A stretch of DNA of 64,000 nucleotides from Hydractinia symbiolongicarpus. Lineage: Eukaryota > Cnidaria > Hydrozoa > Anthoathecata > Hydractiniidae. The stretch lies in the NCBI RefSeq assembly GCF_029227915.1, contig NC_079886.1, positions 24,094,501 through 24,158,500 on the forward strand, given 5' to 3'. Under the pieces are notes generated by a model. That model was not told where the DNA came from. It did not search any database and saw only the letters and a list, made by a program, of their open reading frames with translations. Position numbers and translations under genes: made by a program. This document shows positions 8,146 to 57,080 of the stretch, piece by piece. Numbering within the stretch: the first letter of the stretch is position 1; each line of letters starts with the position of its first letter.

Positions 8146-10512
8146 AGGATTATATTATTAAATTCACAAAAGTGAATCAATAAGATTAGTTTTGTAACAT
8201 CTACATAGCACTGATGATGGTTTTTTACCAAAAACTTTTGCTTAGCATGTATATTTTTTTAAAACTGTTGTTATCATTTCAAAATTAGTTTTATTTATTC
8301 ATTTTGTTTTATACATCTCAATACATTTAAGTGTCAATTTTTATTATTTTTTGTGGACCCCCACTTATTTTCTAGATGATAATTTTTTTTAAATATATAA
8401 GTATATATATATATCTTTCAAGTATGATAAAGAAGCTGTTTTAGGGTTTTGCAATCTTTTAATTTAAGTTTAAAAATCTAATCTGACTGGTCAGTAAAAA
8501 TTTTAGGTATCTGAAAAAAGTATTGCTTATTGGTTACAACAACCGATTTTCATATGTTTTAATGGAAATTACAACCTATTCCCATTAAAGTGTCTGTCTT
8601 CCAAAGAACATCTAAAGGTAGACTCTAAATAGTGAATTTGGCAACAAATTAACTGTGAAAAACTTTTTTTAATTTCTACAAGAAACAAAATAAAGTGGCA
8701 AATTTAAAATGCTGAATGTAAACGCTTATAAGTATTAAAAAACTATGCTACTGTAGAGTTGATCAGCTTGCTTTCATGTGCTACTCTTTCTAATGAAAAA
8801 TGCTTTAATTTATTTGATACGAATCTCAGTCAAGGCTTCACTTGTCCTATTATTAGCTTCTTCAACATGTGCCACTGCAGGCTGCATGCAAATGTGTATG
8901 TTTTTAAAAAATCCTTTTGAAAACAACGTTTTGAATTAAACCACAAGTATGGGAAAGATAGGTGCAGTGACAAAATAATAAAAAATTTAGAATTTTCTGC
9001 AATAGCTGGTAGCAGTTATAATATATCTTTCTTGCAAAGCCGTTTTGTTTTTATTCTCCTATTGGCGCAAACATACTACAGAAAATTGTTTATATATATA
9101 TATACAAAATATTTATAGGGACAGTTTGGGTACTATCTGTTCCTGTTATATACAAAAAAAGATGTAAAATTTTGACTTACTATATAGATGGCTATAGGGG
9201 AGACCACATAGGTGTGTAAAATTCACCACTAAACGGGAAAACCAATTTTTTAGAATTATGTATATATAAAATATATTTTTAAGAATTAATTATATTTAAC
9301 ACAGAAAGTTCTTTACAATATTTTCAGCTGTTTTAGAATTAAGAACAAAATGATAAAATGATTTGCAATATATCATATATTATATTAATTGTATTAATGT
9401 ATATTTCATTTGAAAAAAAACAGGAGCCTAAAACATTGTAACAAAAGTAGAGAAAACATATTTCACAGGTCGGTAAAGTTTTTTAACTTAAATATGTATT
9501 TTGGAGAATCCTTTTTTCAGTTGTTTAAATGTCTGTAATGCAGTTCGCTCTGGTTTTAAAAGAATTGATTACCTGTTTAGCTAGGGTTATAATTTGTTTG
9601 CTTGCTTGTTCGATCGTTTGTTTGTTTCATTTTTTGATTTGTGGCATAAAAAAAATTATTTCAAAAACATTGTACCGGGAATCAGCTGAAGCATTTCGCA
9701 TGATTGGGGAAAAAACATCTTCCTTTTAAGTACAATCTTGATTTGTCACCATTAATCATACTGCAAAAGCAATAAATACGTTCAGGTATACTTATATTGT
9801 ACTTAAATAGATATTACTACCGTAAAACTTCTAATTTAACACGCGAGTAAAAATAATTATTTTGACGTGCATGGGTAGAAATAACAACATGTGCGGAATA
9901 TTTGATGTTTTTTAATATTTAATTTTCTTTTAGAGAACAGTAACTTACATATAAATAACCCTTTTAAATGTAGATCGTAAAAAGTAAAAATGGAGTCAAG
10001 AAATTACTATGAAACTGTTTTGGTCAATTCATACTAATCCTCTCATTACTAAAAAAAATTCATAACCACAAATTAAATTCCTAATTTTTTAATATTGGTA
10101 ATTTTATTAAAAAGACTTCAGACCCGTCACGGTGAATTAAAATTAGCATATCCAAATCGCATTATTTTATCAAATGACTTTTTCTCCCAATTAAAAATAT
10201 ACACAAAAGATTTATAAAATACAGAATAAAAGGTCTTAGGCGTCGTTAATTTATCGCATCACACAGACAGTATACGGCTATTATTAAAGAGATTTTTACC
10301 ATTTAGCTAGTGTTAACGAAATCTTAAATATTGATTATTGTTATCTTAAACCAGCTAACTTACCACATTTCTCTATAATATATTTCTATCACCATATAGG
10401 TGGGAAAAAAAAGATTTTAAATGAAGTTAGCTTTCAGTTCTAGATGCTCTAGAATCACTTCACACTGAGTCACAGTCATCATTTATGAATTAGTTGCAAC
10501 TGTATATCATAT
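8146..10512. other. AT-rich spacer, no gene seen
   Basis: Very AT-rich, with short (AT)n tracts. The open frame at 9529-9729 has leucine/isoleucine/cysteine-rich content typical of chance reading of T-rich DNA. The last few hundred bases before 10594 probably contain the GnT-IV promoter and 5' UTR, but I see no clear TATA box. Confidence 0.4.
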
Positions 10513-10593
10513 ATGTGTAGTTTTCATGATGTATATTTTTTTATAGCATGGTGTAAACAAGGATTAAAGTTACGCTTAAACACACTCCAGAAG

Positions 10594-12222
10594 ATGTTCG
10601 CGTGGAATAACATCCGAAAAAATCGGTTTAGTATTACGGTATTCTTTGTGCTTTCGTTGCTAACTTTCATTTTTATCAAACAAAAACAATACGAAAATGA
10701 AGAAATGATCTCCCGCATAGAGGGTGCCAAAAGTACTGTTCCACCACTGATATTCAAAAGCATAAGACTCTTAAAAGAAAAATTAATGTCATTAGAATTT
10801 GAAAACAATGTACGGACGCAGGAGCTGTTGACCTTAAGAAGAAAATTAAAGGATAGATTTGCAGATAATATGACTGAAGGGAGTTCGTTATCTCTTCCTA
10901 GTATATACAACGTGTTACCGCATTTGTTAGGACATAAAGATGCGCTATCACCAACTACGCACTTATCAAAAGGTAGGAAAAACATTACCTTGGCGTTTGG
11001 GATACCCACGGTTCGCAGACAGAAAAAATCGTATCTCCATCAAACTTTACAGTCGCTAATCAGCGGTTTGAATGAAGAGGAGAGAAAAGACGTACTACTT
11101 ATTGTTTTTATCGGAGAACAGAATCCAGAATACATTCAAGAAATAGTATCCGACGTTAAGAGTAAGTTCTCTGCTGCTCTCCAGAGCGGTTTGCTGGAGG
11201 TGGTTGCGCCACCCAGAAATTATTATCCAAGCATGGATAATTTACCGAGTACCTTTAACGACCCTAAGGAGAGGGTGAAGTGGCGTGCTAAACAAAATTT
11301 AGACTATGCTTTTTTGATGATGTACGCTCAAAGCCGGTCGATATTTTATATACAAATGGAAGATGACGTCATAGCAACACCATCCTATGCCAGCACGATT
11401 AAATCGTTCGCCATGCAGCAAGCAAGCAATAATTGGTTCATGTTGGAATTCTCAGCTTTAGGCTTTATTGGTAAATTATTTCATGCGTATGACTTAAGTA
11501 TTTTAGTGGACTTCTTTTTGTTGTTTTACAAAGAAAAGCCGAACGATTGGCTGCTCGATCATGTATTATGGGTAAAAGTATGCAACCCTGAGAAAGATCT
11601 AAAACATTGCAATCGCGAGAAAGCGAAACTTCGGATTAAATTCAAACCTTCACTCTTTCAACATGTTGGCAAAGAGTCCTCCCTGAAGGGAAAGAAACAA
11701 AATTTAATCGATAAAGATTTTAAGAAATTAGCGTTGTTTCAAGCGCACTTAAATCCAGCAGCAACTATCAAAACAAACTTCGAAGAATACCAAACGTTTA
11801 CCGCCCGTCGTGGTTATCTAGGTCATTCGTTTTTCTGGGCGCTAGCGCCACACAAAGGCTCCGTTCTTCGCATAATATTCGATCGTCCGCAGAAATTAAA
11901 AAGGTTTTTGTTTCGGAGTGGAAATGTGGAACATCCTGGTGATAAATTAATAAACGCATCCATTGAGATACTGACACAAAACACGCAAAACCTCAGAGAA
12001 ATATCTGCAACCCACGGGGAGGGTTTTAGTGCGCCATTTTTAGATCAGGATTATTTAAGGATAGGTCATTTCGACCATACTGGTTTAGGGCAAGGCATAG
12101 TTTCCGAAAACGTGGGAACTGTAACAGAGCTGCGTATTAGAGTTCTTTATGACATTAAAGACAATTGGGTCATTCTTAGTGAATTTTTTATTGAAACTCG
12201 GAAATCGGGTACAAAAACATAA
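10594..12222 (+). CDS. MGAT4: N-acetylglucosaminyltransferase IV (MGAT4 family)
   Basis: The 542-residue start at 10594 is preferred over the in-frame ATG 27 codons upstream, because it gives the standard Golgi type II layout: a short basic tail (MFAWNNIRKNR), then a signal-anchor at about residues 12-28 (FSITVFFVLSLLTFIFI), then a coiled stem (about 35-90). The catalytic domain shows LAFGIPTVRRQKKSYLHQTL, LLIVFIGE, the acidic metal-site motif IFYIQMEDDVIA and NWFMLEFSALGFIGKLF, all characteristic of GnT-IVa/b. These enzymes add a beta-1,4 GlcNAc branch to the alpha-1,3 mannose arm of N-glycans. The length matches the family (about 535). The C-terminal part (HFDHTGLGQGIVSENVGTV) resembles the family's lectin-like tail. 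The coding region has no introns, unlike vertebrate MGAT4A/B. Confidence 0.85.
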   Translation: MFAWNNIRKNRFSITVFFVLSLLTFIFIKQKQYENEEMISRIEGAKSTVPPLIFKSIRLLKEKLMSLEFENNVRTQELLTLRRKLKDRFADNMTEGSSLSLPSIYNVLPHLLGHKDALSPTTHLSKGRKNITLAFGIPTVRRQKKSYLHQTLQSLISGLNEEERKDVLLIVFIGEQNPEYIQEIVSDVKSKFSAALQSGLLEVVAPPRNYYPSMDNLPSTFNDPKERVKWRAKQNLDYAFLMMYAQSRSIFYIQMEDDVIATPSYASTIKSFAMQQASNNWFMLEFSALGFIGKLFHAYDLSILVDFFLLFYKEKPNDWLLDHVLWVKVCNPEKDLKHCNREKAKLRIKFKPSLFQHVGKESSLKGKKQNLIDKDFKKLALFQAHLNPAATIKTNFEEYQTFTARRGYLGHSFFWALAPHKGSVLRIIFDRPQKLKRFLFRSGNVEHPGDKLINASIEILTQNTQNLREISATHGEGFSAPFLDQDYLRIGHFDHTGLGQGIVSENVGTVTELRIRVLYDIKDNWVILSEFFIETRKSGTKT

Positions 12223-13824: not shown

Positions 13825-13830
13825 TTTATT
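13825..13830 (-). terminator. Poly(A) signal AATAAA after terminal exon A
   Basis: AATAAA on the minus strand, about 165 nt past the stop of exon A. It is the last canonical signal of the nematocyst-type locus. Confidence 0.6.
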
Positions 13831-13992: not shown

Positions 13993-14840
13993 TTAGTGAT
14001 GTTTCTTGAGGTGTGTTTTACCTTTTTTGGTCGTCTTGGATTTCTTGCAACACTTCTTTGGACAACTTTTGACACAGAACTTTTTGCACATGCCACAGCT
14101 TGGTTGGGCATTACCGACGCTTTGTCCACACCCAGGTGGAAGAGGTGAGCAACCAGAAGGTAGCTGAGGTACACATGCTGGTCCGCCGCTCAAACCAGAG
14201 CAGCCGCTTGGCATCACAGGTGCACATCCTGGCGCAGGTTGACATGAAGGATTTTGAGGCTGTTGAGCCCCACAACTGGGTGGTAGTGGTGCACATCCAG
14301 CTGGCATTTGTGGTACACATGAAGATCCACTGCAGCCCTTAGGAATCGTAAGGGTACATCCAGGCGGTGGTTGGCACAGAGAATTTGCTTGGGGTAATGG
14401 TGGAGAACCGCAACCAGCAGGTAAGGGAGAGCAACCAGAAGGAATCTGTGGGGTGCAAGACGATCCTGAACATCCGCTTGGCATCGCTGGTGCACATCCA
14501 GGTGCAGGCTGACATGAAGGATTAGCTTGAGGCTGTTGGGACATGCAACCAGGTGGAAGTGGTGCACATCCAGCTGGCATTTGTGGAGCACAAGACGCCT
14601 CTCCAGCACAACCAGGAGGAGGCACTGGTGCACAACCTGGTGCAGGTTGACATTCTTGTGCCATTGGATTTAATGGCATCATACCCTGTCCACACGCATC
14701 TCCCTGCTGACAATCCATCTGTGCTTGCGACTCACATGGAGATGCTCCGCAGTCAGATTGTGGACAGGGTGGGTTACATGGTGCTTTAAATGGAGCTTGC
14801 GTTGGTGGCTTTGAGCCATCACTAATAGGCGGTAGAAGAC
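13993..14840 (-). CDS. Terminal exon A: Cys/Pro-rich nematocyst-type body with CRD
   Basis: 281 codons after the acceptor TTTTCAG. It opens with LLPPISDGSKPP, nearly the same as exon B, then Cys-Pro spaced pairs and the MDCQQGDAC motif also found in exon D. The middle is a repeated module of Gln/Pro and single cysteines (NPSCQPAPGCAP, MPSGCSGSSC, GCAPLPPGC) present about three to four times. The end is CGMCKKFCVKSCPKKCC (C-x2-C-x3-C-x3-C-x3-CC, one residue short of the canonical minicollagen CRD), followed by a Lys/His tail. There are no Gly-X-Y collagen repeats. It is expected to be a disulfide-linked capsule or tubule protein. A canonical AATAAA follows. An ATG exists inside the exon at 14718, but the frame is open to the acceptor and there is no signal peptide. 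Confidence 0.8.
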
Positions 14841-15756
14841 CTGAAAATAAATTAGTTGTAAACTTAAGGTTTTGTCAAAGTTTGTTATCTATTTATTTGA
14901 AATAATGTTGATGTTCTTACTCTTTAGTTTGTCTGTCTGTTCGTCTCTTGGTGTCTTTTTTAAAATTTGTTTTAAGCTTAAACATGACTTGAGAATCTCT
15001 CTCTAAATGATCTTGAACATAGGAGCAAGATTTTCTGAGAAACATTTCTTCCAAGTAGGTTTGGGTTAGGTTTTTACTAGTTCTTTTGAAATTGAAAGTT
15101 GTTAGACAGAATAGAACAATAGTTGACAATGGTTGTCCATTTTAACACAATCGAGTAAGTCGATAAAAGTGAATTAAATAAACTCCAAGTTAAGTTCATT
15201 TGCAATTAAACCATTAAAGTATATTGGTAAAGACAGAACCTTATTCTAAATAATTTTGCGGAATTTAGCTTTGCGGAAGGAAAATTTATGAGTTTCTAAC
15301 GAGATTTTTATTTTGCTAGTAGAAATCTTTCCTTTAGAAACATTCATACAAGTTTCATCCGTATAAGAAATACCGTTAAAAAAACACAATACGTTGCGCT
15401 ATTTTCTTAAACAGGGTTTCATCAACAAACTCAGAAAACTTCTTACGAAGTTTAAAATTTTTGGTAAATTTTCCATTCCAGTTTTCAATCTTTTCTTTTT
15501 TTAATTTGCAGATATTTTCAAGCTACTCCAACAAAAAAGTCAAGTCCTAGTATGTTTTAATAATATATTTTACACAAAAGTATAATGTTTAGAAGTAGAA
15601 TACTTGCACATTATCAAGTCATATTTCTAGAAGATAAATATTTATGGAGGAGTGACAATTATTTATTTATATATAAAAAGTTCGTACTCTAAATGTTTGT
15701 GCGAATTTAAAATAAATTTTGTAGGCGCTTAAATTGCAAGGCGTGTACTATTTTAT
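14841..15756 (-). other. Interval between terminal exons B and A
   Basis: 916 nt, the longest gap between terminal exons. It contains the exon B poly(A) signal (AATAAA at 15662-15667) and the exon A acceptor. The only minus-strand ORF (14917-15129, beginning MSTIVLFCLTTF) continues into Lys/Arg-rich sequence, has no convincing cleavage site and no phase-1 donor that I can see, so I do not accept it as a private first exon for A. Confidence 0.5.
15662..15667 (-). terminator. Poly(A) signal AATAAA after terminal exon B
   Basis: Minus-strand AATAAATAAT about 90 nt past the exon B stop and upstream of the exon A acceptor. It would allow B to be a genuine last exon. Confidence 0.6.
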
Positions 15757-16358
15757 CTACTGCTTGTGATGTTTTTTGCTTTTCTTGTTAGTCCTGGATT
15801 TCTTGCAGCATTTCTTTGGGCATCCCTTTGAACAGTATCTTTTACACATTCCACATGGTGGGGGTGGTGGTGGAGCTGGAGCTGGAGGCATACACATTGG
15901 AGGAGGTGGTGGAGGAGGTGGGCATGGAGCTGGTGGTGGTGGACATGGTGGTGGTGGTGGTGGGCATGGTGGCGGTGGTGGTGGTGGCGGTGGTGGTGGT
16001 GGTGGTGGTGGAGGGGGTGGAGGGGGTGGTGGTGGAGGGGGTGGTGGTGGTGGTGGTGGTGGTGGTGGTGGTGGAGGTGGTGGCGGCAAGGGAGCCATAC
16101 ACATTGGTGGTGGTGGCGGTGGTGGTGGACAAGGTGCTGGTGGTGGGGGACACATTGGTGGAGGTGGACAAACTGGTGGCGGTGGTGGTGGTGGTGGGCA
16201 AGGTGGAGGACATTCCATTGGGGGTGGAGGTGGTGGTGGGCAAGGTGCAGGAGGTGGTGGACATGGTGGTGGTGGTCCACATCCAGGAGGAGGTGGAGCA
16301 CATGGTGGCTGCTGAGGTGGTGGTGGTTTAGATCCATCACTGATTGGTGGCATTAATC
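15757..16358 (-). CDS. Terminal exon B: polyproline nematocyst-type body with CRD
   Basis: 199 codons after the acceptor TTTTGCGTAG. It starts LMPPISDGSKPPPPQQPPC, a paralogue of exon A's start. Next comes Pro with regularly spaced Cys (CPPPPAPC units) flanking an uninterrupted run of roughly 45-50 prolines encoded by CCA/CCC/CCT codons. The end is CGMCKRYCSKGCPKKCC plus a Lys/His tail. Polyproline segments next to CRDs are typical of minicollagens, where they are thought to form stiff polyproline-II rods; the collagen triplets are absent here. The opposite strand gives long poly-Gly, poly-Val and poly-His frames that are only shadows of the CCA repeat. The repeat length is likely to be polymorphic. 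Confidence 0.8.
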
Positions 16359-16528
16359 CTACGCAAAAGAATGATATATTTTTAATATAATTTAGAAGAG
16401 TCAATAAATCAGGAAAATCAACATCAAAAAACATTGTCGTAAGCTGTGTTGAATGTATTGAATGGATGTTGTGATGTGTATGGGTTTTTATAACAATACT
16501 GGGCTTAAACTTTCTTCAAAAGTTTAAA

Positions 16529-17142
16529 TTACACCTTGGATTTTTTTGCTTTTTTGCTTGCGTGATGTTTCTTAATTTCATGTTTCTTTTGAGGCAAGGA
16601 TGCAAAAGCTTTAACTGGAACTCCTTTTTGTGTAGAATTTGTCACATTTTCAACATTTTGACTTTCATTTCCTTTTCTATTGTTATCAGTCACTGTTGCA
16701 TTATTCATGCTTAATATGTTTTGTAAACCTGCCTCGGTGCTTGAGGCACCAATTTGATTCATTTTCACTGTATCGTTTGCGTTTTTATTTTCAACAGGCG
16801 CAGTTGTGTTGGTAACTTCTGTCTTTTTAGCAGCGCATGGTAACGGAGAACATGCATCTCCCGGCCCCAAGTAATTCATAGGATATTGCAGTGGCCCTGG
16901 TGTGGGTGGCATAGCTGGTTGCGGAGCATTGGTGACAGGCATCATCATTATTTGCATTGATGGTGTTGGTGCAGCAACAGATGGGTAACAGCACCAGTCA
17001 TAACAAGCTGGTGCGCATGTTTGTGGACAAGGTGCGTCACAGTAACGCGGTTGAGGATTTAAATTTGGTTCTGCTGTAGGACCTGGTCTCATATGACCTC
17101 CCAAAAGCACTGGTAGACTACCTTGCGGTACTTTTGCTGGTT
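16529..17142 (-). CDS. Terminal exon C: single-CRD body with Asn/Thr-rich tail
   Basis: 203 codons after the acceptor CTTCATCATAG. It joins in phase as E-PAKVPQGSLP. A canonical CRD (CDAPCPQTCAPACYDWCC) lies about 35 residues in and closely resembles the N-terminal CRD of exon E. The rest is Pro/Met-rich, then Asn/Thr/Ser/Val-rich with several possible N-glycosylation sites (NTT, NDT, NAT, NES, NVT, NST), and ends in a Lys/His/Ala-rich basic tail without a C-terminal CRD. Of the five bodies it is the least Cys-rich. An ATTAAA variant poly(A) signal lies 143 nt past the stop and only about 22 nt before the exon B acceptor. Confidence 0.75.
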
Positions 17143-17522
17143 CTATGATGAAGAGAGCAGAAAAATGTTGCATTCTCAGTCTTTTGTTTAAATTTATGAA
17201 AGGAAAAGACGTCCAGCTAAGGGCTTCCAGAATTTTTTTAAAGGTATTCTAGAGACTTGTCGAATGCAATAACAGGAAGCCTTTTTCAGGTCTGGTTTTC
17301 TGCTCCCTTCATAACGAAGTAATAACAATGATTTTAACAATAACTAATGAAACAGAGTAGGTATATGCATTTTATGTGCAAAATTTTACATAATGGAATG
17401 CATAATGAATGGAGATTAGTTGATAAATGTGATGCAAAAAAAAAAGTTTGAAGTGTAAAGTATGGTGGTATATATTAATTGTACAAATACATGTTACGTA
17501 TAAAATTACGTTAATTATATAA
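17143..17522 (-). other. Interval between terminal exons D and C
   Basis: 380 nt with the exon C acceptor at its end. No canonical AATAAA was seen on the minus strand; CATAAA variants occur near 17195 and 17370. No signal-peptide ORF was found. Confidence 0.5.
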
Positions 17523-18067
17523 CTAGTGATGATGCTTTTTGCCCTTCTTTGATGTCTTTGATTTCTTGCAGCATTTCTTTGGGCATCCTTTTGTGCAGAA
17601 CTTCTTGCACGAGCCACAAGAGGGTGTAGCGGCGGGTTGAGGCATAGGTTGGGCGCAGCCAGGTGGTAGTGGAGCACAGCCAGCAGGTAGTTGACCCATT
17701 GGTTGTATGGGTGCACATCCGGGTTGTGGTTGACAAGAAGGAGGTGGGGGCGCTTGCATACCACAGCTAGGTGGAAGCGGAGCGCATCCAACTGGCATTT
17801 GAGGAGCACATCCCGCACCTACCCCTGGTGTACATCCCGGTGGAGGTACTGGTTGGCATCCAGGAGGAGGTTGACAACTTGGTGCCATTGGAGGTACTTG
17901 AGGCATGGCGGGGGCACATGGATCTCCTTGTTGACAGTCCATTGGAGCTTGAGGGGCAGCACAAGGTGGCTCGGCGCACGGTGGTGGAGGTGGTGGGCAA
18001 GGAGGATCGCATGGTGGTTTTGGTGGCGGTGTTTGTGGTTTTGGTGGTGGTGGTGGTGGCATTGCAC
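17523..18067 (-). CDS. Terminal exon D: Cys/Pro-rich body with CRD
   Basis: 180 codons after the acceptor AACCGTTTTAG, joining in phase as G-AMPPPPPPKP. It starts with polyproline, then CDPPCPPPPPPCAEPPC, the MDCQQGDPC motif shared with exon A, and repeated PSCQPQPGCAP / GCAPLPPSC modules. It ends with CGSCKKFCTKGCPKKCC and a Lys/His tail. It is most similar to exon A. Its acceptor lies only 64 nt past the stop of exon E, which leaves no room for a separate promoter and first exon. This is the strongest structural evidence that D must be spliced to a distant upstream exon with E skipped. Confidence 0.85.
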
Positions 18068-18131
18068 CTAAAACGGTTATGGTTATAAAAGCTTAAACTA
18101 ACTAAACTATACACGTAGAAATGGTAAGAAA
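18068..18131 (-). other. 64-nt gap between exon E stop and exon D acceptor
   Basis: It holds only a short AT-rich stretch, TTTTATAACC and the acceptor of D. It contains no AATAAA, ATTAAA or signal-peptide coding. An E-type mRNA would therefore have to run through D, or be cut at a non-canonical site. Confidence 0.7.
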
Positions 18132-19234
18132 TTAATGTTTTTCTTTTTTGCTTTTTTTGTGAGTTTTAACTTTGGCCTTTTTTGAACAGCAATGTTTGCT
18201 GCACTTAGAACTGCAAACACGCTTGCAACTAGCTGGACATGCGGGTTTTTGAGAAGATTGGGACGGACATTGTGCACCTGCCGGACACGGAGAAGATGAA
18301 GCACACTTAGAGCCAGTGCATGGAGGAGTTTGTTGTGTTACTTGTTGAGCACATGTACTTCCTGTGCACCCTTGAACTTGCGGAGCCTGTTGGGCACACA
18401 TTGAACCTTGGCATGGTTGTTGTTGAGGCATACAAGAAGAGCCTGTGCATGGTTGCTGTTGGGGCATGCAAGAAGAGCCTGTGCATGGTTGCTGTTGGGG
18501 CATGCAAGAAGAGCCTGTGCATGGTTGTGGTTGAGTATTACATTGAGAGGGTGGTTGACATTGTATTACTTCTACGTCAATAGGCTTGGGTTTTTCAGTG
18601 GGCTCTGGAAGATCCTCAGGCAAACAACTACCTGGCGGTAAACACTGAACGGGAGGGGGTGGTGGTGTACAACCTGGTTGTGGTTGACATCCAGGTGGGG
18701 TTATTGGTTGCGCTGGTACACACCTTACTAGCCCACTGGCACATGTTGCGGGAGCTGGAGGAGGTGTGCAAGCTGGTTGAGGAGTACACATGGGCGGGAG
18801 TGGAGGCGGTGCTACTTGCTGACTACATGGTGGTTGAGCACAAGAAGGAACTGGTGGTGCAGGCGGGGAGCAGGGAGGTTGAGCGCAGGGAGATGCCATT
18901 GACTGTGCAGGTTGTGGGCAAGGTGGTTGCGCACATGGAGATGCTACTTGAGGGGCAGGTTGAGGGCAAGGTGGCTGGGCACAGGAGGGAGCGGCAGATA
19001 CAGGGGGAGCCATTGGTCCACCATTCGGTCTTCCACAGCAGGAAGGGGTATAGGATGGGGCACATGCTGGGTTGCAAGGTGTAGTTGGCATCTGTTGTTG
19101 TTCCTGATATCTTGCCATATCGGGATGGCCACTACAACAAAAATCATGGCAGGCAGGAGCACATTTTTGGTCACAATCTCCTGGACACAAACGTGGTAAT
19201 GGTTTTGGGAGTTCAACGTCAACTGGTGGTGCGC
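18132..19234 (-). CDS. Terminal exon E: two-CRD nematocyst-type body
   Basis: 366 codons after the acceptor TTTTGCTAG, joining as G-APPVDVELPKP. An N-terminal canonical CRD (CPGDCDQKCAPACHDFCC) at about residues 18-35 of the exon is followed by Cys/Pro/Gln modules: SCAQPPCPQPAPQ-type repeats, then three near-identical 12-residue units QQPCTGSSCMPQ encoded by a 36-bp repeat around 18410-18530. A canonical C-terminal CRD (CPASCKRVCSSKCSKHCC) and a Lys/His tail close it. The CRD-variable rod-CRD plan is that of minicollagens, but with no Gly-X-Y region. It is the longest and first terminal exon after the head. Confidence 0.85.
18410..18530 (-). repeat. 36-bp in-frame tandem repeat in exon E
   Basis: Three nearly identical units plus a diverged edge, each encoding QQPCTGSSCMPQ. 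The reading frame is kept by unit length, so copy number can vary without breaking the protein. Confidence 0.8.
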
Positions 19235-19719
19235 CTAGCAAAGTGAAAGGAAAATTTCATCAAACGACAAAAAAATTTTCCTTTTTTGGCTAATTTATAA
19301 CACGCTGTTTTGTGTTTTTTTTTCGGAAAACGTTGATGTGTCTGAAATAAGCGGTGCGTGTAAATGTCGCCTGTGGAAGGTTTATTGTTATACACGTTAG
19401 TTGTACGCGTTAGGTGTGAACATACAAATTGTAGCAATAAAAGATAATGCGATTTGATAGAATTAGTAGCTAACACAGTAAAGCAGCCGATGGGCGCACC
19501 TAGTGTACCAGGGACTGCTTCACTTGTCATTTAGTCTGTAAAAAATTCCATCTATAACTTCTTTTTGAAAAACAATTGGGATATCTACAAAATGAACTTG
19601 TTCCAATGAAGGTTTTGATTCTACCCAGTTTAAAAGCGCTGGTGCAATCCCTTTGTATAAAAATCGCATTATCTTATCGTTATTGTTAAAGTATAAATGT
19701 ATTAAAGAACTTAGCTTAC
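19235..19719 (-). other. Intron between acidic exon 2 and terminal exon E
   Basis: 485 nt. The donor is GTAAGC next to 19720 and the acceptor is TTTTGCTAG at 19235. A minus-strand open frame (19219-19530) crosses it but reads through the acceptor and is Lys/Phe-rich, so it is not accepted as coding. Confidence 0.6.
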
Positions 19720-20073
19720 CGCTGGCGCTTCCTTCCTCTTCTTCTGGTCCTGGAGCTGGAGGTGCTTGCTGTTGTTGTTGAAGTCTGTCATCAATTCCAT
19801 CGCCGTTGGCGTCGTTATTTTGTTGTTGTTCTAATTGATCATCAACACCATTGCCGTTAGCATCGTTGTTGGGTTGAGGAGCAGCATTTGGAGCAGCATC
19901 ATCCTCACCAGCATCGTCAGAACTGGGTGATGGGGCTGGTGCATCTCCTGCATTATCGTCACCGCCAGCTGCGTCGTCAGTGTTGGCGTCAGCAGGAGTA
20001 TCAGCGGGAGCAGGAGCATCAGCAGGAGCGGGAGCGTCACCTGCTCCACCAGGAGCGGCGGCATCATCAGGAG
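19720..20073 (-). CDS. Shared exon 2: acidic Asp/Ala/Pro segment with Ca-loop-like repeats
   Basis: 118 codon equivalents between the acceptor CTTATTACAG and the donor GTAAGC; both boundaries are phase 1. The sequence is Ala/Asp/Pro-rich (APADAPAPADTPADANTDDA), then has two similar units, NNDANGNGVDDQLEQQQ and NNDANGDGIDDRLQQQQ. Their D-x-N-G-D-G-x-D-D spacing resembles calcium-binding thrombospondin type 3 or dockerin loops. It ends in a Glu run (GPEEEEGSASG). The strong negative charge contrasts with the basic head and tails. As a symmetric exon it could be included or skipped without a frameshift. Confidence 0.8.
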
Positions 20074-20200
20074 CTGTAATAAGATAAAAATAATTAATTA
20101 ATTTTTGTGCTCGTTAAAGAACGATTTTCATTATAGGAAATAAATATTCCATTAATTTTTCTTGAAATATTTCTATCATCAGATAAAGACGTAGACTTAC

Positions 20201-20333
20201 TGTCCGCTTTTTTCGCGTGTTTCACATGGTGTTTTTTGCCATGTTTCTTGTGTTTGCCAAGAGATTTGGCATCGATTAAAGTAACTGCGATGCACGCCAC
20301 AAGGGCTAACACCAATAAACCACGAATGTTCAT
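20201..20333 (-). CDS. Shared exon 1: signal peptide and Lys/His propeptide
   Basis: 44 codons plus one base, donor GTAAGT. MNIRGLLVLALVACIAVTLIDA is a clear signal peptide, followed by KSLGKHKKHGKKHHVKHAKK, a basic propeptide-like stretch in the position where minicollagens carry a cleaved propeptide. The ATG immediately follows a splice acceptor (TTATTTAG), so the 5' UTR is on a separate exon. It is the only convincing signal-peptide exon between 13.9 and 22 kb on this strand, although five terminal exons need one. Confidence 0.85.
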
Positions 20334-20817
20334 CTAAATAACAGACGTGGAATATTATTTCAAATTGGAGAACTTTTTAAAATTATCAGAGTTGTGGATG
20401 AATTGCTTCGTCTTTGAACTATATGATGAATTTATTACTATTATTACCATTACTATTTATGGGTTTATTTATTTAATTCTTTATTCACAGCGTTGATCAA
20501 CGAGATACATGTTGTTCCTTGCAATACCATTATTTTAAAATTTAAAAGGAAAGAGCTACCGCTTCACACAAATCGATAGTTATTGTTTGTTGGTAAGGGA
20601 CTTAGACCGTTTCTGTTTTTTTGAAAATAGTAGTTACAAAAGGAATTCATTTTGTAGAAAATTGTACATAGAACATAAATAAAATGTAGTTACATATTTT
20701 TACTGCGAATTTATTGTAGGATTTCAGATACATGCCTAATTAGAATCCTATTTTAATATTAAAATTTAAGTCAATATAGAAAGATATAAAAAAATGGAAT
20801 AAAAAAAACAATCTTAC

Positions 20818-20930
20818 CTCTCTAGCTTTAGTGCTCGTATCCTCAGTGGGAGTTAAATCTTTAAATTTGCACTACTGCTTGCCCAGTGACCATGGAAAGA
20901 TCACTGATTAGGTAATACCTTTTTCGAATC
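20818..20930 (-). other. Putative 5' non-coding exon of the nematocyst-type locus
   Basis: A good donor (GAGAG then GTAAGATT) at 20817-20818 faces the acceptor just before the exon 1 ATG, giving an intron of about 480 nt. The upstream limit is set by assuming transcription starts about 30 nt after the TATA box. Its end is approximate. Confidence 0.5.
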
Positions 20931-20957
20931 AATTTCAAACAAAACTACGGGGGTAGA

Positions 20958-20964
20958 TTTTATA
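20958..20964 (-). promoter_or_regulatory. TATA box of the nematocyst-type locus
   Basis: TATAAAA on the minus strand, followed after about 30 nt by the region called as the 5' non-coding exon. Position and match support a core promoter, but this is not proven. Confidence 0.5.
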
Positions 20965-29898: not shown

Positions 29899-32800
29899 TC
29901 ATCATCATCATCATCATCATTCTCGGCTTAACGTCCGTTTTCCATGCTAGCATGGGTTGGACGGGGTATATTAATGACCCTCTTCCAATCTGATCTAGAC
30001 TGTGTTAGATCTAAACTCAACTTCCTCTCTATCAAGTCCTCAAATTGGCGCCATAGATTAGTGGTTATAGCTTTCGTACTCTGTGCGGGAGACCGGGGTT
30101 CGATTCCTCTTGACGGCGATTCAACATGGGCGAGTGAATGTTACCATAGCCCCGGGTTAACCCAAGCCATGTGAGGGAAATTGGGGAGATGGCACACTGT
30201 GTGGGCCGTTGGATGTTGCCGGGAGTTGTCTAGTAGAGCGTGGGCCCTACTAATTGGGTCTGCGTAGCTCAAAATGAGCATTAAATACTCTAGGACTCTC
30301 CATCTAAGCCATGGCCCCTCCTGGAAATAATAGACAGGGTATATCCCTCGATATTTGTGAGGCTAGCCATGTAAAATATGCACATCTATCTATCTATCTA
30401 TCTATCCTTATAACCTCCTGCCAAGTCTTTCTCGGTCTGCCTCTGGGCTTTGCCCCAGGAACTATCAAGTCTCTACACTTTCTTACCCAATTATCCTCCT
30501 CCATTCTTTCCAAGTGCCCCAGCCAATTCAATCTTCTTATCTGGATAACATCTTTAATTCTACAGAGACTTAGCCTGCTTCTTAGCTCATCTGAACTCTT
30601 TCTGTCTCTCAGACTGGCATTACACATCCACCTAACCATTCTCATATCATTCCTTTCTAAACGGTCAAGATCTTCCTGCTTCACTGCCCATGTCTCACTA
30701 CCGTACAACATAACACTTCTTACACAGGCCTCATACAACCTACCTTTTACCACAATTGACAGGACTCTGCTAGTCAATAAAGGAAGTAACTCTCTAAACT
30801 TTTTCCAAGCAGAACCTATCCTGCAAGTAACACTTCTTCCAACACCCCCTTCACTGCCCAACATATCACCTAAGTAACAGAAGTTCTTAACTATCTCTAA
30901 CGAGCCACTGTTGTACATCATTAAAGCTGGAAATACTTCATTCTTTATAATCTCACCTTTGCAACGCTTGCATACAAACTGTATGCCAGCTCTTAACCTT
31001 CCACTAATACTACTGCACTTCTTATGTACCCAATGCTTGCAAGTCTGACAAAAAATTGAGTTACTACCAACCCCTTTCCTGCAAACTCCACAAGGCCACT
31101 TTCCAACTACAAGGTCACACTTGGCTGCAATGCTACTTATCATGACTTTAGACTTTGCTGTGTTTACCTTCAGCCCTTTCTCTTCTTTATGTGGCGCTCT
31201 ATCAAAAGCTTTCTCTAAATCTACAAAGGCAAAATAGAGATTCTTTCTCTTTCCTAAATACTTTTCCTGAAGCTGTCTGAGTAAAAATATTGCATCTGTA
31301 GTGCCACGCCCTGGAACAAAACCAAATTGCATCTTATCTATATCAATTCTTTCTCTAAGTAACTTATCAATCACTCTTTCAATAACTTTCATTACTTGAT
31401 CAACCAACTTCAAACCTCTATAGTTACCCCTTTTTAATGCATCACCCTTGCCCTTGAAACAATTCACTATTACACTCGACTGCCACTCACTCGGAATAGC
31501 ACCATCCTTTATAATCTGGTTAGCAAGACTTGTAATAAGCTCAACTCCAATATATCCAGATGCTTTTACCATCTCTGCAACAATACCTGATACTCCTGCA
31601 GCCTTGCCAATCTTCATTTTCCTAATAGCCTCCACTACCCATTCTGTCTTGATCTGCATGGCTGGCCCTTCTACATCATCATCATCAGACAAATTATCCT
31701 CGTCCCAATCAAACTCAGTGTTAAGCAACCTCTGATAATGATTCTTCCAAGCTACCCTTTTCTCCTCCTCTGTGCTAGCCAAAACACCTTCATCATTACG
31801 TATACACTTCTCACCTACAATATCTTGATTAGTCTTCTTCATTTGCTTTGCTATCTTGAATACCTCATTGCGCTGGTCTTCCCTTCTTAACACATCTGCA
31901 AATCTGTTTCTCTCTGCTTCTGATTTTGCCTTATACACTGCTGTACGAGCCCGACGCTTAGCTTCTAAGTAAATATTTTTACTACCACCTGACTTCCACT
32001 CTTTCCAAAGTTTCCTCTTTTCCTTTATACACTGGTCAACCTCATTATTCCACCACCAGGTCTGTCTATGTCTAGCTGGTCCTTTTGTCCACCCACAGGT
32101 ATCATCAGAAGCTTCTAGAAGACAATTCTTCAAAGTAGTCCAAGTACTTTCAACATTGTCACTATCACATTGACTATTGTAGGCTAACTGCTGAACTTTT
32201 GCACTAAATTGTCTTGCTACAATCTCTTCCTTCAGCTTCCAGACTTTTCGACGGGGCCTGTACTTTCCCTTGGCTTCTCTGACACTCTTCAAGATAATAT
32301 CACAAACCAGCAACCTATGCTGGGAAACACACTCTTCCCCCGATATAACTTTCACGTCCTTCGCCACTCTCTTGTCTGACTTTCTAACCAAAAAGTAATC
32401 TATCTGTGTCTTACAACCACCTGACTCATATGTTATCAGCCTACTCTGTCTCTTACTGAATGATGTGTTGCAAACCACCATGTCCGTTGCCATTCCAAAC
32501 TCAAGCAATCTCTCCCCTTCCTTATTTCTGCTCCCAAATCCATAGCCTCCATGCACACCTCTATAACCTTCAGATGACTTCCCAACATGACCATTAAAGT
32601 CGCCGCCCACCATGACAAGTTCAGTGTCTCCAAACTTTGATGTGACTGCTATTAACTCATCATAAAACTTATCTTTATCTTCCTCACTGAGTCCACACTG
32701 TGGAGCATAAACTGACAGAAAAGTGACAATCCTATTACCTATCAAAAACTTTATCACTATAATACGACTATTAACACGCATAACATCTATTACTTTTTCT

Positions 32801-33024
32801 ACCCACTTCTCTGCAACGAATATGCCAACTCCTCCATATCCATCACTATTACCAATCCAAAAAAGCTTATACCTTGCCCTCCTACCTTCCACAAATCTCA
32901 CTGAAGCTCCTCTCCACCTAACTTCCTGAACACAACACATATCAACAGATCTACGTTCTAACATTTCAACTACTTCACCTGCTCTACCTCTCAGAGTACC
33001 AACTTTTACACTAGCCATCCTCAA
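29899..33024 (-). pseudogene. LINE (endonuclease-RT) lacking the RT catalytic core and split by a SINE
   Basis: An 876-codon minus-strand frame (33024-30394). The N-terminal AP-endonuclease domain shows VQEVRW, GGVGIFVAEKW, VYAPQ, GGDFNGHVG, TQIDYFLV and SQHRLLVCD. The RT follows with MKIGKAAGVSGIVAEM, KGNYRGLKLVDQVMKVIERV, MQFGFVPGRGTTDAI and FVDLEKAFDRAPHK (motif A). The frame then jumps without a stop to KGLKVNTAKSKVM: the segment that should carry motif B and the YADD catalytic motif is absent (junction near 31180-31195). A Cys/His zinc-knuckle region (CGVCRKG..CQTCKHWVHKKC) and a C-terminal SETWAVKQEDL..RRLNWLGHLERM region follow. The ORF stops at a SINE. Its true end (KLSLDLTQSRSDWKRVI..ASMENGR, stop) reappears at 30045-29950, followed by a (GAT)n tail near 29899-29920. 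Cnidarian and molluscan 'craniofacial development protein 2-like' predictions usually derive from such elements. Confidence 0.85.
30045..30408 (+). mobile_element. tRNA-derived SINE inserted in the LINE coding region
   Basis: Starts TTGGCGCCATAGATTAGTGG (A-box-like TAGATTAGTGG) with a clear B box GGTTCGATTCC near 30100. A body of about 280 bp follows, ending in a (ATCT)n tail. A second copy lies at 34132-34603. It separates the last ~36 codons of the LINE from the rest. I could not identify a clean target-site duplication. Confidence 0.8.
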
Positions 33025-34131
33025 CCTAGTGTTATCTACCTTAGCTTGGAAAATTCAAAAATCAGATAATTTCTATATCGTTAAGCACTGGAAAGGTGAA
33101 AAACTTGGGACCTTGTTTATTTTTATATATGTATATATATATATTTGTGTGTTTAAATACGGTTTGTTACAAAAATGACCGCATGCATTTTTTTTGGATT
33201 TCCATGCCTTAGTAACTGAAATTGTGATGATGAATGTTATGTTTATTTTTTGCTAGACCACAACCATTCTATATCAATGATCCTTAGTCATATGGAGCTG
33301 TTGAAACTTTGTGTTATGCGTTGTTTTAAGCTAACTGGATGATAGACAGGAAATAGACATGTATAATTATTCCTATCTGATTGCACAAATTTTGTTTGGA
33401 AAAATAACAAAGGAGTGTTTGGCATTACCAAAAAAAGAACTAAATCAAGTAAGATTTAAACTAACAGTGTGTAGGTAGTAGAAGGAAAAGGTTTTTATAG
33501 CTAGCTACATACATTTTATGAATTCCATGAATGAATAGCTTGAGATTGATTAAATAAGAAACACAAAAAATTTTAATATAGAGGACTTTCCAATACTTAC
33601 AGAAATTTGGATATTTTTTTTGCACATGCGCAAGCATTTCTGTAAGTGGAAAATATAAACAACAGACCACAGTGATTAAAGAATTCCATCTATATACAAA
33701 AAGAAATATTCACATACCTAGGCTAGCTATAGTTAAATTTAATTCCAGTTCCTATAGTGTCTTACACTACCTAATACTACGTCGCTCAAATCAAGGAAAA
33801 GATGCGTAAAAAGGAGCTCTGTGATGTGCAAATGAAATTAGTTTGACAGCACATCTCGTTGTACAAAGAAAGAAGATGAGATCAAATAAAATAAAAGCTC
33901 ATACAACTGATTATAACTACAGTAAAGATTTTTTTACTTAAATTTCCATTCCTTTGTTAAAATACCTCCTTCTTACACAGAGTTAAAGTACTTCCGGTAA
34001 CAAAAAAATAAGATTTTCTATTGCAATTTCCCTGTACATAGCTAGCACGCCATTTTATTCTTATTTACTAGAAGTTATACTTTGAATGCATAAGTGACGT
34101 AGCTCAGTTGCGTGCACCGACACGATAGCAA
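33025..34131. other. Spacer, no gene seen
   Basis: AT-rich. It includes the putative 5' end of the LINE just above 33024 and a short (TA)n tract near 33125. No recognisable gene. Confidence 0.4.
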
Positions 34132-43988: not shown

Positions 43989-44732
43989 TTATCTGAAAAA
44001 TAAGTCATTTTTTGCTTGCCGTGGATCTTCTGGTCGCCATATTTTCTTCGTCTTTATAAATTTTAATTTTTGGGAATTATTTTCATTTGACCAAGATAAT
44101 GAGTGGCCTCTTAAAGGTAAGTATCCTTGTTTTTCACTATCATCTAAAAAAAAACACAAATAACATAATTAAAAAAAAAAGAAAAAGAAAAAAAGACGTA
44201 AGAAAAAAAATAGAAAGTGGAAGATAGACACGCGAGTTGGCTTGATCAATTTTTATTTATTTAACTATTTTTATTTAATCAGTTAATAACAACAACAACA
44301 AGATGGAAAAGTCATACCTTTTGAAGCATTATATATGACAACTTTCCCAGCATTTTTAAAATGTGTTGAGAAAATTCCATCGTCTTCCGGGCTATCGTTA
44401 TCAGTTCTTATAAGCTCCGTTAAAAAGTTGATGTAACATATAGCCAAGCGTAAAGTATCCACCTTGGACAATCTCTTTTCATACGGTAGTGTAGGTATAT
44501 GACTTCGCAACCCTTCGAAAGCTTCGTTGATACATTGCATACGTCTTCGTTCACGCAAGTTTGCTGCTGATCTGGTTCTTGCGTAACCTGTGTCGGATCG
44601 TTTTAATTTTCGTTTGTATCCAATTACATCGTGTTGTTCGTATTGTTTTCCCTGTGTTTGTTGGAGGGGTGTTGTACAAAACCCATGTTGGAGCATGGGA
44701 AAGGTCGAATAAAAATTATTATGCGAATCCAT
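43989..44732 (-). CDS. PTF1A: Ptf1a-type bHLH transcription factor, 2 exons
   Basis: Exon 1 44732-44318 and exon 2 44143-43989, phase-1 junction, 189 aa. The bHLH at about residues 55-108 has the Ptf1a signature: basic region [20 protein letters not shown], loop [20 protein letters not shown], helix 2 [11 protein letters not shown]. Exon 2 supplies [20 protein letters not shown] and [11 protein letters not shown], the conserved C-terminal motif that in vertebrate Ptf1a binds RBPJ (tryptophans of the LSW and VWTPEDP segments). Vertebrate PTF1A is also two-exon. Reading through the donor at 44317 would replace this tail with a short Cys-rich one (to 44283), so the spliced form is preferred. Ptf1a factors act with class A bHLH partners in neural and secretory cell fates; the cnidarian role is inferred. 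Confidence 0.92.
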
Positions 44733-44812
44733 ATTATTTCAATCCCAAAATTTGCTCAGATGTTAAGAGTCCGTGAGAAAGTCAAATCTGTTCTAAATCA
44801 GCGAAAAGCAAC

Positions 44813-50321: not shown

Positions 50322-52741
50322 TTAATAAATATAATCGTAAAAATAGTCATCCAAAATATCTCGTTTTATTTTCTTAGATTTCACTGAATGTTTTGTTTTA
50401 CTTTTCTTTTTATCCTCATTCTCGTCATCATCATCGTCATCATCGTCATCCTCATCGTCATCATCATCACCATCATCATCTTTTGCGACGGTTGATCTAT
50501 GTGGTTTCTGTCCACCACCTCCTTTCATTGACTTTGGCATTTTCGGTACCGGGTAAATTACCAATCCTGAGAGTGCCATTTCATTTCCACGGAACGCATC
50601 ATGGTAGGCTGAAAGAAAGACATAAGTCCAATCACCTGAACAACAATCAATCCATTGATCGATCGATCGATCAAACAATCACTCAACCATTAATCAATCA
50701 ACAAGTCAATCAATCAATCAATCAACTAATCAAATCAATCAAAGCTATTTAAATAAACTACAAATCATTTTGGGTCCCCTAACTAGTCTTTTCTCAACCC
50801 TTTTCTTTTTTTCTCAAGAGGAGCACATATCAGAAAGCTGAGAACGAGGTTGGCTCCTCTTCGTGTAAACACACTAAAATAACTGCGTTAATAAACTTTT
50901 CATAGCCTTAATTGATTTTTATGTAAACCACTAAAGTCGAGAAATCACCCCCGATTTTGTAACTTCTTACTGCATATACAATCAATTTAAACAAATAAAG
51001 CGAAAAAAGGTCCTGTGTTCGAGGTTGGAAAAAAGCTGAACGAAGGAAGAGAACAGTCGTCTCATGCATATATGTGTTACGTCTCCGTTAGTAGGAAAAC
51101 TTTTTTAAAAAAGGACTAAAACCGACCTCGTACCCAGTCTTCTTTTTTGCACTATTAAAAAGCAAACAAAGTCCTGGAGACAAGGTTGTATTAAATAAAA
51201 GGTAAAGTGTATATATTAGAATTGATCAGTAAGTATAATGTTGTCACCAACCTGCATCTTGTCTTTGGTAAGGATAATAATAAGTTTGTTGCTCAGGAGG
51301 GGGCTCTTGACATCCTCCACACCCGTAGCATAAGTAATTGTTACAGTCACCGTTACATTGGTCACACGTGCTATGTCGAAACCCACCCGTTACTGTAGGA
51401 GTCTTGCTCACCTCTTGTCTCGGTGACCATGGTTGCTGGTTTCGATTAGACCAAGGAGAGAGAGTGTTTGATCTTTGGGTATATAATTGAGAATTATAAC
51501 TCGGTTGGTTTGACCATGGATTGGCAGGGCGTTGCACTTGTTGTGGTTGAGGTGCATTTGACCTCTGACTATAAAGCATTTGATTAGGCCAGGAATTTAA
51601 GGCTTGTTGTATTTGTGACTGCTGAACGGGTGTGTTAGGCCAAGTTTGCGTGCGTTTCCACGGGTTTTGCACGATTTTCCTTGGCCATGTAGATTGCCAT
51701 TGTTTAAAATATTGCTGTTGTTTTGGATAGTACATTGTGGATCTTCTCAAGAACAAATTATTTTGTTGCGGACTTTGATATGCATATTGTGCTGAAATAT
51801 AAACATGTAAAAAATCAATGTTTCTCTATTTTCTTACGCCTAAACGTGCAGTAAGATCATCTAAATTTGTAACCTCCTTATTGTGAAAGATATCACCATC
51901 TCTCACACTAAGGACCTCCTTGCTCACACATGACTCCGTACAAAAAATGATTGTCTGACGTAGCTATGTCTTTAAAATACAGGAGCGGTTTACATGATGC
52001 ATTAACCTCGTCTCCAGGTCTCAATTTCTCTTTCTGACAATCTTGGACGGCGAGAAAAATTGCGAAAAAGACAAAAAAGATCTTGGGACGAGGTTAATTA
52101 ATAGCACAGTGGATTACCCATATCAAAATAAAATAACCATGGAAACAATCACAAGTTTTATAAAAGTTTGTACAAGTGTACCTAAAAATTTTTAATAATT
52201 TTTAATAATTTTAGTCGGGAGTAATAAAGTAATCTATATTGTAATACCCGTATACGTCTGTCTGTCTGTCACGCAAAATGGTAGCTTAGCTGCGGAAGTA
52301 GCGAGAAGCACGCAATGCGGTATAAAAAGGAGGGCGAACCCGTGGATTTTTCCACGGGCTAACGACTAGTGAAGTAAAATTTCAGTATGTCGTAAACATA
52401 TATATTTAGCCTGATAATTTGTATTTCTAACATAGTCTCAATTTATGCATATAAAATTTAAAGGTTCAAACTAGCTACCCCTTTAAAATATTGTGAAAAT
52501 GTAAGTATTATCCAAAATGAATTTCCATCGCAATGCTGTCTTTGCGGACCTTTTTTGGATCAACAGGAAGGTACGCCAACAGAAAAGAAAAATACAAACA
52601 ATTTTGGTGTAACGAATAAAAGAATTATAAAGTAAGGTGAACAAAAAATTGTATACTGATATAAGAAGTACCTGGATAAGCAGAAATACAACAAAAAATC
52701 GCATTTAAAACGATAATTTGCGCGATCTTTAGCCAAAACAT
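50322..52741 (-). CDS. Secreted Gln/Pro/Trp-rich protein with Cys cluster and poly-Asp/Lys tail, 3 exons
   Basis: Exons 52741-52672, 51791-51252 and 50608-50322; all junctions phase 1; 298 aa. Exon 1 is a signal peptide (MFWLKIAQIIVLNAIFCCIS). Exon 2 is rich in Gln, Pro, Asn, Ser and Trp with recurring W-P/W-S steps (QSTWPRKI, TWPNTPVQQ, NPWSNQ, SPWSNRNQQPWSPRQE), then a cluster CDQCNGDCNNYLCYGCGGC (C-x2-C-x3-C-x4-C-x2-C-x2-C) and a Tyr-rich end. Exon 3 has a poly-Asp/Glu segment of about 25 residues, then a Lys-rich tail (KKKSKTKHSVKSKKIKR). The signal exon, phase-1 introns and acidic-plus-basic composition recall the nematocyst-type locus at 14-20 kb, so a structural role in nematocysts or another extracellular matrix is possible but inferred. 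I do not recognise a named family. Confidence 0.7.
50640..50740. repeat. (ATCG)n/(AATC)n simple repeat
   Basis: GATCGATCGATCGATC followed by degenerate CAATCAATCAATCAACTAATC, in the second intron of the secreted-protein gene near its 3' acceptor. Confidence 0.85.
51123..51190. mobile_element. CCTCGTCC-family MITE copy in the intron
   Basis: CCGACCTCGTACCCAGTCTT and AAGTCCTGGAGACAAGGTTG ends. A related partial copy lies at about 50790-50855 (ending GAACGAGGTTGG). Confidence 0.65.
52005..52098. mobile_element. CCTCGTCC-family MITE copy in the first intron
   Basis: TTAACCTCGTCTCCAGGTCT at the left and GATCTTGGGACGAGGTTAA at the right. TTAA occurs on both sides. Confidence 0.75.
52233..52369 (+). 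mobile_element. Mini-Helitron copy 4
   Basis: Starts TCTATATTGTAATACCCGTA after A, and ends with the CCCGTGG/CCACGGG hairpin and CTAACGACTAG before T. It is in the first intron of the secreted Gln/Pro/Trp-rich gene. Confidence 0.8.
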
Positions 52742-56259: not shown

Positions 56260-57080
56260 GCTTATTGTGATGTATGTGCTTGAACGTTTTCAGACAAGTT
56301 CACTATACTTCCTCACTACATTTCTTCTCTAAGTTGAAAACAGTTTTTTTATTTTATTGTATAATGTCTTACAACGTTTTTGCAAAAGTCGCATTCACGG
56401 CTTAATTAGGTGCAAGTTTCTTGCACGGATAATTTAGCATGAACTGAGCTGCTCAATGGTGCTCACCATGGGCCATTAAACAATTTGTCAACAAAAGTTG
56501 ATTATTATACAGATTGTGATTTTAATAAATGTGAAAACTAAGCTATAAATCTTAAACTCTAAGTTTTTTTTTCTGTTTTTTAGTTGACAAGATAGTTTTT
56601 CTGCAATTTACTCTGTCTTTTTTGGTTACTATTGTTATAGTAGGTATAGAAATGTATTTGACAAATTTACTTTTTAAAATGGTGAGAGCAAGAAAATAGT
56701 TAACTGCGTTTAAAATCCCCCTCTTCAAATCTTAGCTAAGTTTGCCAAAATATAAAATACTTAATAAAACCGTGTAAGGCAATTGTTTCCCAATGTCCTT
56801 TAAAATGAAAGGGAAACGAATAAAGTCTTGCAGCAATTACAAAACAGCAGTTTTAGACACCTTACGGTTGAATGAATCCTTCCAACTGCTAGCTAAACGA
56901 TATTAACAAGGTTCTGCACAGTTCACAGATTTTCAAGTAAACACGCGAATTCTCACAGAAACACTTCTTGTTAAAAAAAAAAAAATGGCGAATTCAACAA
57001 ATTATTTGTATAATGAGTATGAAAGGAAAATGTGATGATCGAAGTATTGATGAGCCTTGCTTAAAATTATTACATCCACT
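56260..57080. promoter_or_regulatory. Divergent intergenic region between the two lectin genes
   Basis: 821 nt between the two ATG codons, presumably holding both promoters. No unambiguous TATA box was found; AT-rich with a poly-A run near 56971-56983. A shared bidirectional control region is an inference from geometry. Confidence 0.45.

Follow-up and report, generated by a model that had tools for sequence, protein, structure and literature searches.

How one animal builds many nematocyst shapes from few parts is an open question, and a locus of the hydrozoan Hydractinia symbiolongicarpus raises it in the form of whether a single gene could supply several alternative wall proteins. The locus lies on the minus strand at positions 13,993 to 20,964 of a 64,000-nucleotide (nt) stretch of contig NC_079886.1 (assembly GCF_029227915.1, positions 24,094,501 to 24,158,500), which is referred to as a whole as the window. 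It is likely to be one nematocyst-wall gene in which a shared head of two exons precedes five alternative coding 3' ends, called bodies E, D, C, B and A in their order along the minus strand. If true, one gene with five bodies would be a compact source of diversity, would link splicing to capsule mechanics in a directly testable way, and would be an unusually clean example, in animals, of a secreted structural protein whose alternative 3' coding exons each supply a whole body. Such bodies could easily escape standard gene annotation, since they have no signal-peptide start of their own and may sit in the 3' untranslated region (UTR) of another isoform.

Organization of the locus

Exon 1 (20201-20333, minus strand) is 133 nt long, includes the start codon, a signal-peptide-like segment and a Lys/His-rich stretch, and ends in phase 1 at the donor ACA/GTAAGT (the slash marks the splice site here and below). 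Exon 2 (19720-20073, minus strand; 354 nt) encodes an acidic segment, rich in Ala, Pro and Asp, with two DANGxGxDD motifs, which we take to resemble calcium-binding loops, and ends at the donor GCG/GTAAGC. As it is in phase 1 on either side, exon 2 could be skipped in frame. A single donor-like word was also seen inside this exon.

Five bodies follow on the same strand, each with a phase-matched AG acceptor and its own stop. Body E (18132-19234, 366 open codons to the stop) has minicollagen-type cysteine-rich domains (CRDs) at its N- and C-terminus around Cys/Pro repeats, and body D (17523-18067, 180 codons) is Cys/Pro-rich with a CX2CX3CX3CX3CC tail. Body C (16529-17142, 203 codons) includes one minicollagen-type CRD followed by an Asn/Thr/Lys-rich tail. 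Bodies B (15757-16358, 199 codons) and A (13993-14840, 281 codons) both end in a CX2C-type Cys tail, which follows a polyproline rod in B and Cys/Pro repeats in A. The gaps between the bodies measure 64 nt (E to D), 380 nt (D to C), 170 nt (C to B) and 916 nt (B to A). All boundaries and coordinates of the head exons and bodies in the original prediction, including the acceptors and stops, were reproduced by script, while its description of the bodies as Cys/Pro-rich held for E, D, B and A and not for C, which has 8 Cys and 28 Pro among its 203 residues.

It had also been predicted that either form of the head could join any body, and all five bodies were indeed open and in frame both after exon 1 alone and after exons 1 and 2. 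In-phase joining taken alone is weak evidence. The short spacers before D (64 nt) and B (170 nt) were confirmed and leave little room for promoters, and this spacing suggests that a single promoter could serve all of the bodies. At the 5' side, inspection by eye gave a putative intron ahead of the start codon (20334-20817, minus strand) between a candidate 5' UTR exon ending at 20818 (donor GAG/GTAAGA) and the acceptor TTTAG/ATG; this acceptor could alternatively take a trans-spliced leader. A TATA-like stretch was noted by eye near 20960.

The claim of a single signal-peptide exon at the locus was borne out by a rule-based scan of the minus strand (ATG, hydrophobic core and phase-1 donor), in which only exon 1 qualified between 12.5 and 24.5 kb; the same rules applied to the minus strand of the entire window gave two candidates. 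In searches of the genome (480.9 Mb in 76 contigs, with one to four candidates scored in each), the exon 1 peptide (one candidate scored) and body E each matched only themselves, and body A matched only A and D. These searches were insensitive to low-complexity relatives, body A having missed the tail of B and body E having missed C, and they exclude close copies of the head and bodies, not distant ones.

A related protein joins the head to body C

A protein query that joined exons 1 and 2 to body D returned one match, P0001 (E-value 1.6e-24; 7,994 scored candidates), and a head-only query again returned P0001 alone (E-value 2.9e-30; 7,995 scored candidates). P0001 is a protein of 330 amino acids on a 1,160-nt JGI contig, on which a single frame corresponds to exon 1, exon 2 and body C. 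Aligned to the window by tblastn, its residues 1-47 matched 20333-20199, residues 45-152 matched 20035-19721 and residues 153-287 matched 17143-16718. The break between exon 2 and C fell exactly at the predicted junction and the end of exon 1 was placed within a codon. Because 38 bases at the 5' side of exon 2 were unaligned, the start of this exon is placed by its splice site alone. The second DANGxGxDD motif of exon 2 was identical in P0001 and the first differed at one residue. Among the bodies C was the best tblastn match (E-value 7.7e-50, 56% identical), followed by a stretch around the N-terminal CRD of body E (E-value 1.1e-8). A search of P0001 against the whole genome gave three matches, exon 1, exon 2 and C, from four scored candidates, and missed body E.

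The contig is most simply RNA-derived, since the P0001 frame lacks introns. If the exon order of the P0001 animal is the same as here, its splice would have passed over E and D, and in this window the equivalent protein would likewise require a splice that skips both. The original prediction of one head with several bodies is thereby supported for C and accompanied by the absence of a second head in the genome search; for E, D, B and A, joining to the head in this animal would follow by extension from the layout. Five pattern matches to P0001 in viral contigs were also considered and none was confirmed.

Protein constraint on the bodies

Body D was 65% identical to body A in alignment, and over 175 aligned codons the proportion of synonymous differences (pS) was 0.744 and that of non-synonymous differences (pN) 0.240. 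Comparisons among the Cys tails of bodies A, B and D over 25 codons gave a similar contrast, with pS from 0.74 to 0.90 and pN from 0.11 to 0.13. In their first 13 codons, bodies A and B differed at 11 bases, nine of them in third positions, with one amino-acid change, whereas just upstream of the acceptor 11 of 25 bases were alike. The two bodies being alike from the acceptor onward and not before it, coding constraint appears to begin at the acceptor. The constrained stretch includes the Gly-Leu that precedes the ATG of B, and opposite this ATG body A has a Leu codon. Constraint that starts at the acceptor is as expected of an exon entered from upstream, not of a gene with its own ATG start.

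Within body E the four CAQPPC copies had six variable columns and the three PCTGSSCMPQQ copies had three, all of them third positions. For body C the sole evidence of this kind was its resemblance to P0001. Long-standing protein constraint on A, B and D is supported.

Identity of the encoded proteins

The pattern CX3CX3CX3CX3CC occurred at both ends of E and once in C, on its N-terminal side, while the tails of D, B and A carried the variant CX2CX3CX3CX3CC. In searches of PDB at E-values up to 10, the CRD of C had a single match, mini-collagen 1zpx (E-value 0.073), and the N-terminal CRD of E had three, NOWA 2nx7 (E-value 1.6) and two mini-collagen entries (E-values 2.8 and 3.6). All matches of these two domains were thus nematocyst wall proteins with weak scores, which are to be expected because the queries had only 20-24 residues. 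Neither the C-terminal CRD of E nor the whole of body E had a PDB match. The tail of D matched ferredoxins only, and these matches were taken as chance. None of the seven exon products matched Pfam at E-values up to 1, and Rfam gave no match at gathering scores between 12 and 24 kb.

The longest run of Gly-X-Y was two in E and A and one in the head, B, C and D. Given these short runs and the absence of a Pfam match, the products are not minicollagens and are best called CRD-bearing nematocyst wall proteins, a putative assignment. The head is predicted to be minicollagen-like, with a hydrophobic core score of 3.42 in the rule-based scan and a Lys/His-rich stretch that ends in KKAD. The N-terminal domain of minicollagens is preceded by a charged propeptide, which is described as removed before secretion into the vesicle (PMC4863159), and exon 1 as predicted fits this pattern.

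Two other wall proteins were used for comparison. NOWA has folded domains besides its CRDs; no Pfam match to such domains was obtained here and the CRD likeness was weak. CPP-1 is characterized by continuous polyproline between two CRDs, and here the longest Pro run, 40 residues, lay in B, which has one C-terminal Cys motif, while E, with two CRDs, had a longest run of five. The bodies resemble minicollagens, NOWA and CPP-1 in their six-Cys domains and proline-rich rods, and the head recalls the charged propeptide of minicollagens (PMC4863159, PMC6910907). They differ in having no Gly-X-Y stretch and in the spread of the Cys motifs over alternative bodies.

Polyadenylation signals and the intron between exon 2 and body E

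Neither AATAAA nor ATTAAA occurred between the stop of E and the acceptor of C. None of the 11 polyadenylation-signal variants scanned was present in the 64 nt after E, and the gap after D included weak variants only. The next sites, all on the minus strand, were an AATAAA inside the coding part of C (16784-16789), which could serve run-on E or D messages, and an ATTAAA between C and B (16381-16386), 22 nt before the acceptor of B. The first canonical AATAAA after B was at 15662-15667, two further copies in the gap between B and A started at 15312 and 14897, and another followed A at 13825-13830. Since E and D have no canonical signal before the acceptor of C, their messages probably contain later bodies within the 3' UTR, and the original view of five self-contained terminal exons needs to be changed to that extent.

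The intron between exon 2 and E also includes an AATAAA, at 19386, and the unspliced frame of exon 2 continues for 66 more codons to a stop at 19520, so that intron retention could yield a further short form. A 15-nt perfect inverted repeat lies in this intron with its arms 205 nt apart (19675-19661 and 19455-19441), and its predicted fold had a z-score of -4.26, with none of 200 shuffles equally stable. The hairpin element occurred once in the genome search, and the open frame of exon 2 extends into it. Possible readings are a remnant of an old transposon or a regulatory hairpin that influences the use of E. Allowing up to three mismatches, the 15-nt arm had eight matches in the window relative to a mean of 5.42 expected, with none in the gaps before the other bodies.

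Proposed mechanism

Transcription would start upstream of exon 1, which would supply the signal peptide and a basic propeptide, with exon 2 adding the acidic segment. The exon 2 donor, or the exon 1 donor if exon 2 is skipped, would then be joined to one of the five acceptors, and the first body joined would end the protein by its own stop and leave the remainder downstream as 3' UTR. As each body has its own stop, mutual exclusion would be automatic, without a special device. E and D would probably share polyadenylation sites farther downstream and A would require read-through past the site or sites after B, so control would consist of acceptor choice plus alternative polyadenylation.

Different nematocyst types may choose different bodies and in this way set the crosslinking and stiffness of the wall. 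A stronger version, a five-position switch, is tentative and in our judgement rather unlikely: each nematocyte type would pick a rod and its disulfide crosslinkers behind the constant head and so set capsule stiffness. In B the rod would be polyproline, whereas bodies E, D and A would have Cys/Pro repeats and C the Asn/Thr/Lys-rich tail, and the crosslinkers would be two CRDs in E, one in C and one variant tail in each of A, B and D. Such splicing, if it occurs, would set whether the wall polymer is bridged, capped or branched. The crosslinking part draws on reported rules for CRD types, by which one C-type CRD can polymerise a fusion protein and one N-type CRD cannot, and Val/Ile at position 4 and Pro at position 14 favour the C-type fold (PMC4863159). 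In A, B and D a Pro follows the fourth Cys, mapped by hand to position 14, without Val/Ile at position 4.

Strength of the evidence and alternative explanations

Several observations weigh against a single gene with five usable bodies. Sequence support exists for one body junction, exon 2 to C, and comes from one record; the contig of P0001 could be a retrocopy, and the last 43 residues of the protein did not align to C by tblastn. The head-only query found no second isoform among its scored candidates, and a query with bodies A and D gave no hit in 7,984 scored candidates. Neither E nor D is directly followed by a canonical polyadenylation signal. Body choice might be guided by intron pairing, but the pairing observed was no better than with shuffled gaps: when docking-site pairing between the exon 2 intron and each gap was scored, the shuffles that equalled or exceeded the observed value numbered 96 for D, 50 for C, 74 for B and 27 for A, out of 100.

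Splice-site quality was also uneven. By a pyrimidine-tract ranking, which is a crude measure, the share of AGs on the minus strand whose tract was as good or better was 0.008 for E, 0.031 for C, 0.075 for B, 0.158 for A and 0.276 for D, so the acceptors of D and A were unremarkable. Further in-phase AGs lay in the open stretch ahead of the first Cys codon in E, D, C and A, with the most in C. Donor-like words were present inside E (two), D (one), B (two), A (two, including CAT/GTGAGT at 14735) and exon 2 (one), and the bodies might therefore be cut further. Splicing from within E to D was considered and set aside, as, of its two possible donors, that at 18728 is out of phase and that at 18433 (CTT/GTATGC) is in phase but weak, with both phases worked out by hand.

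The uneven acceptors and the single junction bear on the possibility that only some bodies are used, E by default and C as the alternative, with the others relics of terminal-exon duplication. C alone has a relative in which it is joined to the head, and E has the best acceptor tract while D and A do not stand out. The frames of A, B and D are nevertheless open for 281, 199 and 180 codons and their differences are mostly in third positions, and near-saturated synonymous sites suggest long retention; this reading is improbable in our estimate. The layout of one head and many tails could also arise by trans-splicing of the common head to separately transcribed bodies with promoters of their own for each body or pair, as in mod(mdg4) of Drosophila (PMC12692577). 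Spliced leaders have been reported in Hydractinia (PMC11067881), and the gaps of 916 nt before A and 380 nt before C would offer space, but the short gaps ahead of D (64 nt) and B (170 nt) give promoters little room and cis joining suffices for bodies that all lie on the same strand directly downstream. Trans-splicing of this kind is judged to have a low probability.

Two other schemes would give the bodies greater independence. Tandem families are common, the scan rules were simple and the genome searches scored few candidates, so the bodies might be five separate genes with first exons that lie elsewhere or were missed; this is very unlikely, as the genome search reported no further copy of exon 1, no other phase-1 signal-peptide exon was found on the minus strand from 12.5 to 24.5 kb, and P0001 has this head on C. 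The least credible scheme is a polycistronic unit split by spliced-leader trans-splicing, with a separate start in each body. The report of spliced leaders in this genus (PMC11067881) would fit it, as would an ATG at the sixth exon base of D and B. The first ATG occurs, however, at exon base 22 in A, 51 in C and 71 in E, the signal-peptide scan found none in the bodies, the ATG of B stands opposite a Leu codon of A behind a conserved Gly-Leu, and C is fused to the head in P0001.

Relation to known systems

Hydra nematogalectin reportedly shows exon choice with common ends (work of Hwang et al. 2010). The Hydractinia locus would differ from that arrangement in that an entire body would be chosen, and no Pfam domain was matched. 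The title of that paper, as cited in PMC4195985, refers to nematocyte-specific alternative splicing. In Hydra the nematocyte genes nb001 (minicollagen 6), nb054/spinalin and nb035 are described as yielding splice variants, and those of nb035 have different C-termini and a common 3' UTR (PMC2687796). The locus would resemble these genes in producing several nematocyst proteins, and the run-on 3' UTR of E and D is somewhat like the shared 3' UTR of nb035; the Hydra variants arise as parts of exons are removed, by splicing within exons or by addition of exons, whereas here five bodies are separately bounded (PMC2687796).

Constant 5' coding exons in phase with alternative 3' coding exons are also found in Drosophila mod(mdg4) and lola, and mod(mdg4) has over 30 isoforms in which common exons are joined to alternative 3' exons that have promoters of their own (PMC12692577). 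Layout of this type was found here as geometry for five bodies and as joining for C alone, in the relative. The Drosophila genes use trans-splicing, while the present products would be secreted structural proteins for which cis joining is likely (PMC12692577). A layout of five wall-protein bodies behind one head was undescribed among the matches listed from the open-licence literature, which comprised titles and the starts of abstracts, and in the main text of a cell-atlas paper (PMC11876637) neither 'minicollagen' nor 'splic' occurred. Both elements of the layout have precedents, splice variation among nematocyst genes in Hydra and one head with many tails in Drosophila.

Other features of the window

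A region at 30-34 kb was considered as a second nematocyst cluster on the basis of its GC skew and proved to be a non-LTR retrotransposon, with an open frame at 30394-33054 (minus strand) and, over 30397-33021 within it, matches to endonuclease, reverse transcriptase and PHD-finger families. An open frame at 51244-51825 (minus strand) is Trp/Pro/Gln-rich with a short terminal Cys cluster and no Pfam match, and possibly encodes another secreted structural protein. One open frame on the plus strand (10489-12222) encodes an MGAT4-type glycosyltransferase, with 10597-12219 matching PF04666 (E-value 4.8e-117), and a helix-loop-helix transcription factor exon (PF00010, E-value 3.2e-22) is located at 44283-44738 on the minus strand. 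A cluster of SUEL/rhamnose-binding lectin exons extends over 54222-60372 on both strands, where all four frames tested matched PF02140 and a fifth was noted by eye at about 60.2 kb.

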